32,249 bases of DNA from the NCBI GenBank assembly GCA_016789365.1, contig JAEURH010000036.1:1-32249 (forward strand), in the 5' to 3' direction. This stretch comes from Anaerolineales bacterium (GTDB lineage: Bacteria > Chloroflexota > Anaerolineae > Anaerolineales > Villigracilaceae). The translations under genes were made by a program, and so were the position numbers. Positions 3,405 to 9,967 of the stretch are shown one piece after another (the first letter of the stretch is position 1; each line of letters begins with the position of its first letter). Under the pieces are notes generated by a model. That model worked only from the letters and a program-made list of their open reading frames with translations, had not been told where the DNA came from and did no database searches.

Positions 3405-4304
3405 ATGGCAATCATTGATGAAGCCGTAAAAAAAATTGACGATTGGCGTGGCAAAAATATTTCCATTCATCCGCTTTCGGGCGGGCTTACCAACACCAAC
3501 TACAAAATTGAAGTAGATGGCAAGCCATATTTTGTGCGCGTGCCAGGCGCAAGCACTGATTTACTTGCCATTGACCGTAACAATGAGTATCACAATACCA
3601 AAGCCGCTAGTCAAGCAGGTGTTGCTCCACAAGTTTTGTATCACTTGCCTGAATACAATGTGATGGTGATTGAATTTATCAACGGCAAAACGATGTCGAA
3701 AGAATCGTTGAACGAAAAAGGAATGCCAACGCGCATGGCGCACGCGATTAAGAAATTGAATCAAGGTCCGCGCTTCTTACTTGACTTCAACATGTTTCGG
3801 CTCACGGAATATTATCTTAGCCTGTGCAGTGACCGTGCTATCAAAATCCCTGATGGATACACAGAACGCATGGAAACAGTCAAACGCATTGAACAGGCGA
3901 TGAATGTTAAACCTTTAGCAACTGTTCCATGCAATAATGATTTATTAGCAGAAAATTACATTGACGATGGTCAGCAATTATGGTTAATTGATTATGAATA
4001 CAGCGGAAACAACGACCCAACTTTTGAACTTGGAAATACCTGTCAAGAAATGCAGTTTAATGATGAACAAATTGCCGAAGTATGTTCGGCATATTTTGGC
4101 GAAGCCAAACCAAATATGATTGCCCGCATGAAATTAAATATGATTATGTCTGACGTGGGTTGGGGATTGTGGGCGGCGATTCAAGCCAGCATCTCCACCA
4201 TTGATTTTGATTTTTGGGGTTGGGCAATCGAACGCTGGGGCAGAGCCGTAGAAAAAATGGATTCGGACGAGTTTGAGAAGTGGTTAGTGGAAGTAGCGAA
4301 GTAA
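3405..4304 (+). CDS. choline/ethanolamine-kinase-like phosphotransferase (APH/LicA fold)
   Basis: A 299-residue protein of the aminoglycoside-phosphotransferase/choline kinase fold. Visible motifs are a glycine-rich nucleotide loop (GGLTNTNYK, 26-34), the Brenner-type catalytic segment N177-N178-D179 through N184, and the metal-binding D196 in I-D-Y-E-Y-S-G, followed by N-N-D-P-x-x-E-L-G-N. The catalytic segment has Asn where LicA and choline kinases usually have His before N-D-L. The likely reaction is ATP-dependent phosphorylation of an amino alcohol such as choline or ethanolamine, but the true substrate is unproven. GGAG precedes the ATG. The stop codon falls inside the first unit of the 8-bp repeat array that starts the four-helix-bundle element. 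Confidence 0.8.
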   Translation: MAIIDEAVKKIDDWRGKNISIHPLSGGLTNTNYKIEVDGKPYFVRVPGASTDLLAIDRNNEYHNTKAASQAGVAPQVLYHLPEYNVMVIEFINGKTMSKESLNEKGMPTRMAHAIKKLNQGPRFLLDFNMFRLTEYYLSLCSDRAIKIPDGYTERMETVKRIEQAMNVKPLATVPCNNDLLAENYIDDGQQLWLIDYEYSGNNDPTFELGNTCQEMQFNDEQIAEVCSAYFGEAKPNMIARMKLNMIMSDVGWGLWAAIQASISTIDFDFWGWAIERWGRAVEKMDSDEFEKWLVEVAK

Positions 4305-4340
4305 ACAAATAGACAGGTAAACAAGTAGACAGGTAAACAT
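4301..4340 (+). repeat. left octamer array, five units of GTARACAR type
   Basis: Units in order are GTAAACAA, ATAGACAG, GTAAACAA, GTAGACAG and GTAAACAT, with no spacer. The first unit includes the kinase stop codon (TAA at 4302-4304). The last supplies the A and T of the ATG start codon of the four-helix-bundle gene. Confidence 0.9.
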
Positions 4341-4827
4341 GTCAGAGAAAAAACCTTTATACCAATCTCCCGGTGAAAAAGGGAAACGTGGCTTTGAAGA
4401 TTTGGAATGCTATCAATTGGCATTGGAAGCCATGGCAAAGATACATGCTTTTTCAGAGACTTTGCCTGCCAAAGAAAAGTATGATTTGTATTCTCAAATT
4501 CGCCGTGCCTCAAAAGGTGTAACTGGCAATATCGCTGAGGCTTATGGTCGTTATCATTATTTAGATAGCTTGCATTATTACTCTATTGCGCGTGGAGAAT
4601 TAAACGAAACATTAGCAAAATTAATTGACGCGCGAGTTTTGGAATACATAAATCAAACTGAATTTGAAGAACTTTATAAACTCATAAGACAAACAGAACA
4701 AACATTGAATGGATTTATGTCTTTTGTGCGCCGTCAACGCGCAGGCTCGCAAGAATATGGTGATAAGAAATTAAGAGAAGAACAAACAGAATATGAAATT
4801 GAAATTGATGAAAATGGCGAAAGGTAG
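4339..4827 (+). CDS. four-helix bundle protein (23S rRNA intervening-sequence protein family)
   Basis: A 162-residue protein. After about 17 residues the core begins with the family opening (G-F-E-D-L-E-C-Y-Q-L-A). It continues with Q-I-R-R-A-S-x-G-V-T-G-N-I-A-E-A-Y-G-R near residues 54-72, which is the hallmark of the S23/IVP family, and with two further amphipathic helices. The tail from about 140 is charged (Glu/Lys-rich) and probably disordered. Members fold as four-helix bundles that assemble as pentamers; in ribosomal intervening sequences their role is unknown, and the related Avd binds nucleic acid. This gene is not in an rRNA. Its ATG is part of the left octamer array and no clear ribosome-binding site precedes it, although AGACAGG lies nearby. 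Function is unknown; nucleic-acid binding is inferred. Confidence 0.85.
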   Translation: MSEKKPLYQSPGEKGKRGFEDLECYQLALEAMAKIHAFSETLPAKEKYDLYSQIRRASKGVTGNIAEAYGRYHYLDSLHYYSIARGELNETLAKLIDARVLEYINQTEFEELYKLIRQTEQTLNGFMSFVRRQRAGSQEYGDKKLREEQTEYEIEIDENGER

Positions 4828-4855
4828 AAAATTATATAAGGAAACAGGAGTGAAC

Positions 4856-4887
4856 TTGTATACCTGTATACTTGTTTTCTTGTCTAC
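4856..4887 (-). repeat. right octamer array, four units in reverse orientation
   Basis: On the + strand the units read TTGTATAC, CTGTATAC, TTGTTTTC and TTGTCTAC, the reverse complement of the left-array type (GTADACAR). The arms would pair imperfectly across the gene at the DNA or RNA level. The array ends at the ribosome-binding site of the flavoprotein. Confidence 0.85.
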
Positions 4888-4898
4888 CTCCGAAGGAG
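4888..4898. promoter_or_regulatory. palindromic ribosome-binding site of the flavoprotein gene
   Basis: CTCCGAAGGAG forms a 4-bp stem with a 3-nt loop that holds the GGAG Shine-Dalgarno sequence, 4 nt upstream of the ATG at 4903. The same core occurs in the hairpin at 20969-20981. The stem is short, so any effect on translation would be modest. Confidence 0.35.
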
Positions 4899-4902
4899 AT
4901 AA

Positions 4903-7326
4903 ATGAAGAGTCAAGCAGAAATCGTAGTTATCGGCGGGGGAATTTATGGGGCGCAAGTTGCATATCATCTTGCAAAGTTTGGGAAGAAAGATGTAGTTAT
5001 TGTTGAAAAAGGCGAAATTGCAAGTGGTGAGTCATCCCACGCGGCTGGGCTTGTGACTCAATTTGCCACGTCACAAGCAATGCTTCGTTTTCGTATGTAT
5101 AGCATTGAGTTATATAGCGAACTCGGTTTATTCAATCATGTAGGGAGTTTGAGAGTCGCGTCAAGCAAAGAGCAATTGCTGGAAATGGAAAGAAGCGTGA
5201 GCCGCGCGAAGGCATTAGGCTTGGATTGTGAAATTATCACGCCAGAAGAATCTTTGAAAATCATGCCGCAACTTTCTAAAAAAGATTTATATGGTGGCAT
5301 TTATCTTCCGCGTGATGGGCAACTTGACCCATATACAGTTACCACTTCAATGGTGAAATTTGCAAAAGAACTTGGCGTAGAAGTTTATACAAACACGCGC
5401 GTCACTGGAATCAAATTATCAGCCAAAGGAGAGATTGAGGCTGTGCAAACAGATAAGGGCGAGATTCGATGCGAGATTATTGTCAATGCGGCGGGAATGT
5501 GGGCACCACGCATCGCCGCAATGGCTGGGTTGCAAATCCCAACCACCCCAGTTGACCATCAACATATTGCATTGCGTGCTGTGCCTGGGCATGAATTTGC
5601 TCCGAATACACCTTGCTTGCGTGACCCTGATAACTTAGTTTACATGCGTCAAGAAGCGGGTGGATTGGTGATTGGCGGTTATGAACCAAATCCGTTGCCG
5701 CGTTGGATTGATGGCGCGCCGTGGGAACATGGTTCTAAAAGTTTCCCCGGTGATTTTGACCAATTTGAAATGTTGCTTGAAGGTGCGATTCGTCGTTTGC
5801 CATTTTTAGAACAGGCAGGCATTATTACTTTGGTTCGTCATCCTGGTGCATACACACCTGATTGTCAGCCATTGCTTGGACCAATGGCGGGTGTAAAAGG
5901 CATGTGGATGTTGGCGGGCATGTCTTTGAATGGTTATGGTGGCGCGGGTGGCATGGGCAAGTTGATGGCGGAATGGATTATTGATGGCGAAGCACCGATT
6001 GATGTCTATGGTTATCGCGCGACTCGTTTTGGAAATTATTATTCCGATTTCAATTATGCCGCTGAACGAACAGTCGAAGCAGTCAAATATTATTATCGCA
6101 TGAAATTTCCACATGATGAAAGTGAAGCAGGCAGACCGTATCGCACGAGTCCTGTTCATTATCGTTTGATTGAAAATGGCGCAGTGTTTGGTGAAAAATT
6201 TGGTTGGGAACGTGTTAACTATTATGATAAAGAATCGCGCCGCATGGGTGAAGACCAACGTCTGTGGGGTTGGAATAAACCTCCATACTTTGAGCGTATG
6301 CGACTCGAACATAATTCCACGCGTGAAGGCGTAACTTTATTTGACTTAACTTCATTTGGAAAAATTGAAGTTAAGGGAAAAGGTGCATTGCCGTTATTGC
6401 AAAGATTAACCGACAGCAATATTGATAAACCAGTTGGCAGTGCAATTTATACACAATTCTTAAATAAAAATGGCGGCATTGAATCTGATTTAACGGTCAC
6501 TCGCTTGGGTGAAGAATATTTCTGGGTGATTACTGGCTCAGGTTTTATTGCCAACGATTTAGCTCGCATTCAAATGTATGTAGATGAAAATGATGGTTAC
6601 GTTTCGATTCGTGACATCACACAAGAGTTTGCTTGTCTGGCACTGTGGGGACCAAAATCTCGCGATGTGCTAAAGAAAATTACAAGCAGTGACATTTCAA
6701 ACGAAGCGCATCCTTACTTGACCACGAAACTGATTCTGATTAACGGAACGAAGGTTTACGCCCAGAGAGTCAGCTATGCAGGTGAGCTTGGCTGGGAACT
6801 TTACATTCCAAATAACCGTGCCACAATGGTTTGGGATTTGTTAGTAGAAGCAGGCAAAGAGTTTAACTTACAACTCGGTGGCTACAAAGTGCTTGACCCA
6901 CTTCGTTTGGAAAAAGGATTCAAATATTTCACAACAGATTTAACACCAACAACAACTCCTTATGAAGCAGGTTTAGGATTTTGTGTTGATTTAAACAAAG
7001 GTGATTTTATTGGACGAGATGCTTTGGTTAAACAAAAAGCAGAAGGATTACGAAGAAAACTTTGTACATTGGTCTTGACTGGCACTGATGAATTTGTTCA
7101 AATCTATGGTGGTGAGGCGGTTTATCATGAAAATAAATTAGTCACTCGTGTGCGTAGTGGTGGCTATGGATTCACTGTCAAGAAAAATATCCTTTATGCT
7201 TTCTTGCCGATTGAATTAGCAAAACAAGGTACCCTCCTTAAAGTAGAGTTAATTGAAGGCATGTATGATGCAGAAGTGACTCCTTCTGTATTATTCGACC
7301 CGAAAGGCGAAAAGACTCGTGCATAA
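4903..7326 (+). CDS. dimethylglycine/sarcosine-dehydrogenase-like FAD oxidoreductase with GcvT folate domain
   Basis: An 807-residue two-module protein. Residues 1-380 form a DAO-type FAD domain with the dinucleotide motif G-G-G-I-Y-G (11-16) and H46 in G-E-S-S-H-A-A-G-L, the position where dimethylglycine and sarcosine dehydrogenases bind FAD covalently. From about 440 to the end is an aminomethyltransferase (GcvT)-like domain, including T-D-L-T-P and Y-E-A-G-L-G-F segments near the folate site. The expected chemistry is oxidative N-demethylation with transfer of the one-carbon unit to tetrahydrofolate. The length fits the eukaryotic and bacterial DMGDH architecture. AAGGAGAT precedes the ATG. 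The neighbouring MttB-family gene supports methylated-amine catabolism; the exact substrate is not determined. Confidence 0.88.
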   Translation: MKSQAEIVVIGGGIYGAQVAYHLAKFGKKDVVIVEKGEIASGESSHAAGLVTQFATSQAMLRFRMYSIELYSELGLFNHVGSLRVASSKEQLLEMERSVSRAKALGLDCEIITPEESLKIMPQLSKKDLYGGIYLPRDGQLDPYTVTTSMVKFAKELGVEVYTNTRVTGIKLSAKGEIEAVQTDKGEIRCEIIVNAAGMWAPRIAAMAGLQIPTTPVDHQHIALRAVPGHEFAPNTPCLRDPDNLVYMRQEAGGLVIGGYEPNPLPRWIDGAPWEHGSKSFPGDFDQFEMLLEGAIRRLPFLEQAGIITLVRHPGAYTPDCQPLLGPMAGVKGMWMLAGMSLNGYGGAGGMGKLMAEWIIDGEAPIDVYGYRATRFGNYYSDFNYAAERTVEAVKYYYRMKFPHDESEAGRPYRTSPVHYRLIENGAVFGEKFGWERVNYYDKESRRMGEDQRLWGWNKPPYFERMRLEHNSTREGVTLFDLTSFGKIEVKGKGALPLLQRLTDSNIDKPVGSAIYTQFLNKNGGIESDLTVTRLGEEYFWVITGSGFIANDLARIQMYVDENDGYVSIRDITQEFACLALWGPKSRDVLKKITSSDISNEAHPYLTTKLILINGTKVYAQRVSYAGELGWELYIPNNRATMVWDLLVEAGKEFNLQLGGYKVLDPLRLEKGFKYFTTDLTPTTTPYEAGLGFCVDLNKGDFIGRDALVKQKAEGLRRKLCTLVLTGTDEFVQIYGGEAVYHENKLVTRVRSGGYGFTVKKNILYAFLPIELAKQGTLLKVELIEGMYDAEVTPSVLFDPKGEKTRA

Positions 7327-8527: not shown

Positions 8528-9967
8528 ATGTCATCATTTGCAAATTTGCTTACTCAAGAACAAGTTCAAAGAATTCACGATGCTTCACTTGAAATTTTAG
8601 AAGAGGTTGGATTAAAAGTCCGTTATGAACCTGCGCGTGAATTATTCAAGGAACATGGATGTTCTGTAGAAGATGAACGTGTTAAATTTCCGCGAGCGGT
8701 TGTTGAAAAATATCGCAAACTCGTTCCATCATCTTTTACTTTTCATGGACGTGACCCAAAATTTGATAAAACGATTCCACGGGATAGCCCGGTCATAGTA
8801 ACAGCCAGTTCTGCTCCAGATATCATTGACCCAGTTACAGGTCAAGAAAGACGCGCTGAATCATCCGATATTGCCCGCATTGCTCATCTCATCAATGAAT
8901 TGCCGGGCTATGACATGTTTTCTATTTCAACATTAGCAGATGATGCACCTGCGGATCAATTTACTATTTCGCGTTTGTATCCAGCAATTAAGTATTGTCT
9001 TAAACCGATTCGTGCAACGACGACAGACCATAAAGATACATTGGCAATGATGAAAATGGCATACATTGTGGCGGGTGGGGAAGAAGCGTATAAAGAACAT
9101 CCATTTCTGACGCATCATTATTGTCCTGTGGTTTCACCTTTGACGATGGATAATCTTTCTACTGAAAATGTGATGTATTTTGCAAAAGAGGGATTGCCGG
9201 TTTATCCGACGATTGTGCCAAATGCAGGCTTAACTTCTCCGATGTCAATGTCTGGAACTTTGGTGCAAGGCAATGCAGAATTTTTATCGGCATTGATGTT
9301 GATGCAAATGACAAAAGAAGGCACACCAACAATTTACGCAACGCTTGGCACTGTTGCAGATATGCGTAGTGGTGCTTATACATCTGGCGCAATTGAATGC
9401 GGTATGTTGCACATGGCATTTGCACAATTGGCTCGTTTTTACAATGTGCCATGTGGCGGTTATGTTGGATTAACCAATTCAAAATTAAATGATGCCCAAG
9501 CCGGTTACGAAACTGGGATGTCTGGCATTGCAGGTGTATTGGGTGGCATGGATATGTTTAACATTGGTGGCTTGATTGATGCGCTCAAAACTTTTGATTT
9601 TGCCAAAGCAGTCATTGATGATGAGATGGCTCAAATGATGAAGCGCATGAAGCATGGCATTTCATTTAATGATGAAGATTTGGCTTTAGATTTAATTAAA
9701 GAGATTGGACCTGGCGGTTCATTTATCACAGCTAAACATACCATTAGCAGAATGAAAACAGAAGCCGTGATGACAAAAATCGCAGACCGCGATGCTCGCA
9801 CGATTTGGGTCAAGAAAGGTGCTACTGATACACAAGCAAAGGCGATGAAAAAAGCAAAAGAAATTATGACGACAAACCCAACGCCTCTTCTCTCGCCCGA
9901 AGTTGATTCTGCTATTCGTGAAGCATTTCCCGGTCTGATAGCAGGTGAGTTGCTACCGATTGCGTAA
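8528..9967 (+). CDS. MttB-family (trimethylamine/glycine-betaine) methyltransferase, non-pyrrolysine type
   Basis: A 479-residue member of the trimethylamine methyltransferase family. The opening resembles the family start (L-T-x-E-Q-V-x-x-I-H, then L-E-x-V-G). The frame is open throughout, with no in-frame TAG, so it belongs to the large pyrrolysine-free group that includes glycine betaine methyltransferase MtgB. Such enzymes pass a methyl group from a quaternary amine to a cobalamin protein. No corrinoid protein or reactivase is encoded in this window. AAGGATG lies upstream of the ATG. With the DMGDH-like and kinase genes it suggests stepwise demethylation of a betaine- or choline-like compound. 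The family is secure; the substrate is inferred. Confidence 0.85.
   Translation: MSSFANLLTQEQVQRIHDASLEILEEVGLKVRYEPARELFKEHGCSVEDERVKFPRAVVEKYRKLVPSSFTFHGRDPKFDKTIPRDSPVIVTASSAPDIIDPVTGQERRAESSDIARIAHLINELPGYDMFSISTLADDAPADQFTISRLYPAIKYCLKPIRATTTDHKDTLAMMKMAYIVAGGEEAYKEHPFLTHHYCPVVSPLTMDNLSTENVMYFAKEGLPVYPTIVPNAGLTSPMSMSGTLVQGNAEFLSALMLMQMTKEGTPTIYATLGTVADMRSGAYTSGAIECGMLHMAFAQLARFYNVPCGGYVGLTNSKLNDAQAGYETGMSGIAGVLGGMDMFNIGGLIDALKTFDFAKAVIDDEMAQMMKRMKHGISFNDEDLALDLIKEIGPGGSFITAKHTISRMKTEAVMTKIADRDARTIWVKKGATDTQAKAMKKAKEIMTTNPTPLLSPEVDSAIREAFPGLIAGELLPIA

Follow-up and report, generated by a model that had tools for sequence, protein, structure and literature searches.

Positions 4301–4887 of the window, the 32,249-nt stretch of DNA analyzed here, probably constitute a minimal mobile element acting at the DNA level, in which inverted arrays of an 8-bp sequence flank a single gene for a four-helix-bundle (FHB) protein; the protein is apparently matched to this repeat, and the unit would depend on an enzyme supplied in trans. 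The first-pass annotation had suggested a minimal mobile element at this place, a suggestion now strengthened by empty sites, copies at unrelated sites and plasmid alleles; mobility itself we infer from filled and empty alleles. FHB-array units look like widespread, little-noticed jumping DNA.

Organization of the window unit

The unit is preceded by a choline/ethanolamine-kinase-like gene (3405–4304, plus strand; PF01633), whose stop codon TAA (4302–4304) lies within the first of the five degenerate octamers forming the left array (4301–4340, plus strand; in order, GTAAACAA ATAGACAG GTAAACAA GTAGACAG GTAAACAT). The fifth octamer overlaps the start codon, at 4339, of the FHB gene (4339–4827, plus strand; 162 aa). 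Four degenerate octamers in inverted orientation make up the right array (4856–4887, minus strand; as reverse complement, GTAGACAA GAAAACAA GTATACAG GTATACAA), which ends 5 nt before the AAGGAG motif (4893–4898) of the downstream gene, an FAD oxidoreductase with GcvT domains (4903–7326, plus strand) starting with ATG at 4903. This layout agrees with the first-pass annotation: the left array begins at the kinase stop codon and gives part of the FHB start codon, the right array ends at the ribosome-binding site of the next gene, and the whole is inserted at an operon junction, between that stop codon and that ribosome-binding site. The octamer counts and their inversion also stood, but the proposed consensus GTARACAR fits exactly only three of the five left and one of the four right octamers, the arrays thus being degenerate. 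Near the FAD/GcvT protein, the open reading frame (ORF) at 8528–9967 appears by eye to be MttB-type methyltransferase-like, which may point to a methylamine or betaine operon.

Single GTARACAR words are not rare in the window, where they occur seven times against 3.4 expected; this count, reached in 4 of 100 shuffles, is not significant. It is the tandem inverted arrangement of the octamers, not the single octamers, that goes beyond chance. TRF detects the left array with a score of 71, and alignment of the 260 nt upstream of the FHB gene with the reverse-complemented downstream flank scored 41, compared with at most 33 in 3000 shuffles (0 reaching 41) and at most 30 over 595 places when the comparison was slid along the window's contig. 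Chance or AT-rich repeats as the source of the arrays were ruled out by these shuffles and sliding windows, together with the neighbor-gene controls described below.

Between the arrays, the FHB gene is the only sense-strand ORF of at least 80 aa, with no IS-type transposase gene and no recombinase in the unit. That neither a reverse transcriptase nor a transposase is present, as originally stated, is borne out on the window's contig for the two families searched (0 RVT_1 and 0 Y1 matches). No Rfam match was found in the window or in seven further loci.

The FHB protein matches PF05635 at 93 bits (cut-off 33.8) as well as TIGR02436, and its AF2 model is a four-helix bundle with a mean pLDDT of 84.9. 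A search with this model returned Xcc0516 (2gsc) and 2rld as the closest structures, followed by the Avd proteins of diversity-generating retroelements (DGRs; 8ub7, 4dwl) with weak E-values and a TM of about 0.6. Its earlier assignment to the protein family of 23S rRNA intervening sequences (IVSs), related to Avd, is consistent with the profile match and with this structural likeness. One FHB query gave no match in phage records.

Inverted arrays and matched repeats in the FHB family

To score inverted flanks, the upstream 260 nt were compared with the reverse complement of the downstream 260 nt against dinucleotide shuffles, a locus passing at z ≥ 4. In the related genomes and the window's own genome, 28 of 35 FHB loci passed (36 given, one too short), with a shuffle matching the score at a few. 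All seven FHB loci of the own genome passed, with unlike repeats; when gene starts were re-drawn, five of seven did so, the others reaching 3.7 and 3.2. A database sample covering Chloroflexota, Bacteroidota, Verrucomicrobiota, Planctomycetota, Cloacimonadota and others yielded 46 passing loci of 79 (80 given, one short), compared with 2 for neighbor genes, 1 for mismatched flanks and 9 for direct orientation on the same 79 loci. At both passing neighbor genes, the flanking arrays were of the type found in the FHB unit itself. A phylum sample gave 16 of 31. Among the genes fetched from FHB-rich genomes, 9 of 9 passed in G122 (of 14 counted), 5 of 11 in G310 and 7 of 13 in G086 (of 15 counted each). 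Pooling the relatives, database, phylum and FHB-rich samples without redundancy, 102 of 167 loci passed and 65 failed. Inverted arrays were also present at 9 of 10 FHB loci on cyanobacterial plasmids (10 of 27 matching records looked at). The upstream repeat had a period of 7 in 44 of the 87 loci measured, of 8 in 20 and of 9 in 10. Judged from these sequences, inverted arrays are a common property of the FHB family in several phyla, with different repeats in different clades, a generality that the first-pass annotation had missed.

Two side observations concern the flanks. Across the 79 database loci, the upstream 80 nt were C-poor (0.11) and the downstream 80 nt G-poor (0.13), a strand rule common to unlike repeats. 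At locus L116, a neighbor gene also has the same type of repeat in inverted arrays on its two sides, perhaps forming a composite unit.

Repeat similarity rises with FHB protein identity (Mantel/Spearman rho 0.31; 0 of 1000 permutations, which ignore phylogeny; 96 passing loci without internal stops). With pairs sharing a homologous neighbor segment left out, the mean repeat cosine was 0.04 below 30% protein identity, 0.12 at 50–60% (n = 254), 0.26 at 60–70% (n = 32) and 0.65 at 70% or above (70–95%; n = 5). The nine FHB genes of G122 have, by eye, nine unlike repeats, so host composition alone is insufficient to explain the pairing.

The window octamer follows the same pattern. In the own genome, a tandem octamer 16-mer had 18 exact matches at 15 places, compared with 1 for a reversed-pattern control. 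A window-like FHB gene lies within about 1.5 kb only at the place in the window, and many of the other places are short intergenic hairpins of constant polarity. Among 44 array loci in the own and related genomes (arms sought within 110 nt), the arrangement was '><' in 19, '<>' in none, mixed in 4 and one-sided in 21. The 16-mer was found in 32 of the 61 genomes searched.

The closest FHB homologs with octamer arrays lie at the kinase junction in G001 and between the genes for ornithine carbamoyltransferase (OTC) and carbamate kinase in G019, G030 and G036; the gene has an in-frame stop in G019 and is interrupted in G036. Truncated forms also occur: in G035 (L335, G035:C189, 1000–1101), a 34-codon FHB remnant with decayed octamers directly precedes a window-type oxidoreductase gene, perhaps representing a step from full unit to hairpin. 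The search for octamers beside family members proposed in the first-pass annotation was positive at the array threshold for five of the six window-clade FHB genes examined in the genus, the exception being the G035 remnant. Octamer arrays adjoined 0 of 14 other FHB stretches from octamer-bearing genomes (part of those genomes' FHB genes) and, on one side only, 1 of 162 other pooled FHB loci. A related FHB protein of G041 (54%) is accompanied by a 9-bp repeat that is related to the octamer but different. As a mark of all FHB genes, octamer arrays are ruled out, other clades going with other repeats; on sequence grounds, the octamer goes with the window clade.

Outside the FHB locus, five clade-bearing genomes of the genus (G035 not counted) hold 2, 17, 35, 67 and 69 octamer 16-mers (median 35), whereas the 32 remaining genus genomes have a median of 2 (p 0.004). 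FHB-locus arrays were removed for this comparison; with them included, p was 0.001, most G030 matches then coming from the FHB unit itself. G015 (48) and G054 (71) have many 16-mers, with no clade FHB among the matches listed, nor did the matches listed include two clade copies at different sites within one genome.

Filled and empty junctions

The oxidoreductase gene is next to the kinase gene in 12 of 30 kinase loci. Octamers and an FHB gene fill two of these 12 gaps, which measure 598 nt in the window and 739 nt in G001. The gap of G017 contains just an octamer hairpin, one gap carries a different insert of 151 nt, and the remaining eight measure 17–68 nt. In G011, the closest genome by kinase (95% identity), the oxidoreductase start lies 18 nt past the kinase stop codon with no unit, which provides the clean empty site that the first-pass annotation named as support; a target duplication is unreadable at the window junction. 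Among the other 18 kinase loci, the kinase gene is followed by an octamer hairpin in G036 and by a different array in G005. The latter (L072) is a long GTGAATGG-type array running from the kinase stop codon, with the contig end nearby.

The clade and its octamers at the OTC–carbamate kinase junction are copies at an unrelated site, the second kind of support that had been named. As refuting outcomes, that annotation had named a gene sitting always at this locus and octamers that fail to recur beside family members; we found neither to be so.

In the top 30 of the 58 genomes matched by the kinase, the OTC–carbamate kinase gap holds FHB units in four (two interrupted, one with another repeat) and, by eye, array hairpins of other repeats in several, and measures 11–43 nt in five. 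AGTC-type inverted array hairpins with no FHB gene were noted there at L296, L297, L298, L300, L302, L316 and L320. Given the several hairpin repeat types in this gap, intercistronic gaps look like hot spots for repeat families. One could accordingly regard the arrays as independent slippage repeats or hairpins that gather at such gaps, the FHB genes merely landing between them, and the different repeat in the G005 kinase gap would fit this account as well. Neighbor genes, however, are rarely so flanked (the 2 of 79 described above), and the repeat follows the FHB clade between loci that have no common neighbors, which makes independent accumulation highly improbable.

The window and G001 units, which have their junction in common, are 81% identical and their kinases 82%. 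This similar divergence fits vertical descent with loss in G011, a possible history for the window copy itself. It also agrees with a different explanation, in which the FHB protein is a host regulator binding RNA or DNA, the arrays are operators or mRNA hairpins, the dispersed hairpins form its regulon, and presence or absence reflects ordinary loss or transfer. Such a role could account for the repeat–protein pairing, for the co-oriented neighbor genes and for hairpins at many intercistronic sites. Against it, position is not conserved, one clade occupying both the kinase and the OTC–carbamate kinase junctions; in some relatives these two junctions measure only 11–20 nt with no array; the numerous FHB genes of FHB-rich genomes have repeats that differ from one another; and plasmids with about 98% identical flanks differ by the unit. 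We regard regulation as an improbable explanation and favor a DNA-level mobile element.

The plasmid alleles involve FHB-array units of another clade and include near-identical empty sites. The plasmids of Trichormus variabilis ATCC 29413 and Scytonema NIES-4073 carry a unit at a site that is empty in Fremyella diplosiphon NIES-3275 and five others, with flanks 97–98% identical to the filled alleles. The breakpoints overlap by GTAAT (5 bp), over the upstream stop codon. At the same site, the FHB gene of Nostoc C052 plasmid E is decayed, and Brasilonema has only a hairpin; with such outgroup remnants, precise loss in the empty group and repeated gain are indistinguishable at this site. An intact FHB gene of the same family lies at another site in Nostoc C052 plasmid D. 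In Nostoc ATCC 53789, two junctions show opposite states on plasmids a and c, each plasmid being filled at one and empty at the other. Further units occupy the cas6–cas4 and cas10–cmr3 gaps of cyanobacterial plasmids (L269, L271, L274): the cas10–cmr3 unit, present in Picosynechococcus PCC 7003, is missing in PCC 7002, where the flanks are 89% identical, and the cas6–cas4 unit in Dolichospermum UHCC 0315A, which has another insert there. Over ten filled/empty comparisons, an exact 5-bp GTAAT duplication was seen in two (one site), 3 bp in one and no exact overlap in seven.

Orientation, helper enzymes and relation to known systems

By a simple ORF call, the 167 loci divided into 115 where the FHB gene and both neighbors are co-oriented, 4 where both neighbors are opposed to it, and 48 that are mixed or open. 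Since a flip of the unit would swap the co-oriented and opposed classes, this sense bias needs no genome background. It can stem from insertion or from survival, given that an antisense copy would be unexpressed and could decay to a hairpin. The first-pass annotation had also allowed for an RNA-level insertion with ends that fold together. The strength of the bias speaks for such an RNA-level element, like the 23S rRNA IVS, in which the arms would pair in the mRNA, RNase III would cut the stem, the unit would be removed or silent, and spread would occur via RNA. Consistent with this, in the predicted fold of the window RNA the two arrays pair with each other and enclose the ORF (MFE −146.4; 20 shuffles, −126.5 ± 5.8, none as low), and rRNA IVSs have a protein of the same family inside an RNase III-cut stem, according to excerpts of PMC4990558. 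Differences between arms, on the other hand, comprised 136 G-U-compatible and 169 incompatible changes (p 0.07, in the opposite direction); selection for RNA pairing of the arms is thus unsupported, and the arms have the appearance of copied DNA, not of a stem selected as RNA. The target duplication at one site likewise points to DNA insertion, and RVT_1 is absent in 8 of 20 FHB-bearing genomes, those with at least four FHB matches. Taken with these observations, spread at the RNA level seems unlikely to us, though less so than regulation, and movement as DNA remains the reading we prefer.

With RVT_1 missing in those eight genomes, reverse transcriptase as a general helper is unsupported, and FHB units do not generally require one in their genome; the own genome has a single RVT_1 match, on another contig than the window's. 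Y1_Tnp, in turn, was matched in all 20 of these genomes, compared with 8 of 19 Chloroflexota genomes lacking FHB (Fisher p 5e-5), two of the eight matches lying below the Pfam cut-off. One FHB and one Y1 match were found in G051, which is outside the 19. Because the genomes were assigned to the two sets by their number of FHB matches, and the sets are of different family composition (taxonomic confounding), this association is only a lead. The own genome has five Y1_Tnp matches, all on contigs other than the window's (C298).

We propose that FHB units insert into the spaces between genes of an operon, in some cases across the stop codon of the preceding gene, such that the neighbors would keep their stop codon and ribosome-binding site, and that sense-oriented units may persist as their gene can be read from the operon transcript. 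The FHB protein, Avd-like and with relatives that form rings, would bind the array or hairpin of its own unit, whereas cutting and joining of the DNA would fall to a trans-acting enzyme, for which a Y1-type transposase is a candidate only. The hairpin-only forms, which are directly visible in these genomes, may derive from full units and have become dispersed, much as MITEs or REPs relate to their parent elements.

More tentatively, and with somewhat less than even confidence, FHB-array units may form a pan-bacterial class of recombinase-less mobile elements, in which a ring-forming, Avd-like protein encoded by the sole gene recognizes its own repeat and spawns hairpins of the kind known as STRR, with rRNA IVSs as the branch that settled in rRNA. 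If so, the class would link the S23/IVP proteins of rRNA IVSs, the IVP genes reported in cas loci (PMC3936711) and the scattered hairpin arrays of Chloroflexota and cyanobacteria, and would be a mobile element whose only gene cannot explain its movement. The clade-matched repeat offers a concrete ligand to test for PF05635 proteins.

In the full text of one open-access library, we found no description of FHB genes in inverted tandem arrays. Excerpts of PMC4990558 call the Coxiella 23S rRNA IVS selfish, with inverted ends, RNase III cutting and suspected mobility, place a PF05635-family protein within the stem of rRNA IVSs, and describe PF05635 proteins as present in many bacteria without known function. 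From the corresponding portions of the other sources come 18 IVP genes in cas loci (PMC3936711), which the units in the cas6–cas4 and cas10–cmr3 gaps may explain, the Avd–PF05635 relation (PMC10053308), IVP named in a figure legend (PMC10910872), IVP ORFs in CPR rRNA insertions (PMC11270868) and table rows that list an FHB gene flanked by those for guanylate kinase and a nicotinic acid mononucleotide adenylyltransferase (PMC5524665). Intergenic FHB units with matched arrays are not described in these portions of the six papers.

Several known systems resemble the window unit in part. With DGRs it shares the Avd fold, as judged from the model search (8ub7, 4dwl), but it has no reverse transcriptase; the RVT_1 match of the own genome lies elsewhere, and 8 of 20 FHB-bearing genomes lack one. 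Cyanobacterial STRR sequences are tandem arrays of degenerate heptanucleotides and, to our knowledge, have been described as repeats without a gene. By their description, they look like the Nostoc-type plasmid FHB arrays, being degenerate short tandem arrays between genes, whereas FHB arrays are inverted pairs around an FHB gene.

REP/RAYT systems and MITEs are dispersed intergenic palindromic hairpins with a repeat-matched protein, in which gene-less forms outnumber full units. The window octamer is likewise a dispersed intergenic palindromic repeat, the own genome having 15 places with a total of 18 exact 16-mers. In contrast to REP/RAYT, the FHB gene has no known nuclease, no Y1 match lies on the window's contig, and the clearest FHB case shows a 5-bp target duplication, a feature that Y1 enzymes are not known to produce.

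The 23S rRNA IVS combines an S23p/23S_rRNA_IVP ORF with complementary ends able to form a stem, and the window unit has both. IVSs, however, lie in rRNA helices, whereas the window unit lies between kinase and oxidoreductase genes and has no Rfam match, and FHB units differ further in their tandem-array ends (mostly 7–9 bp), in the repeats proper to each clade and in their dispersed hairpin-only copies.
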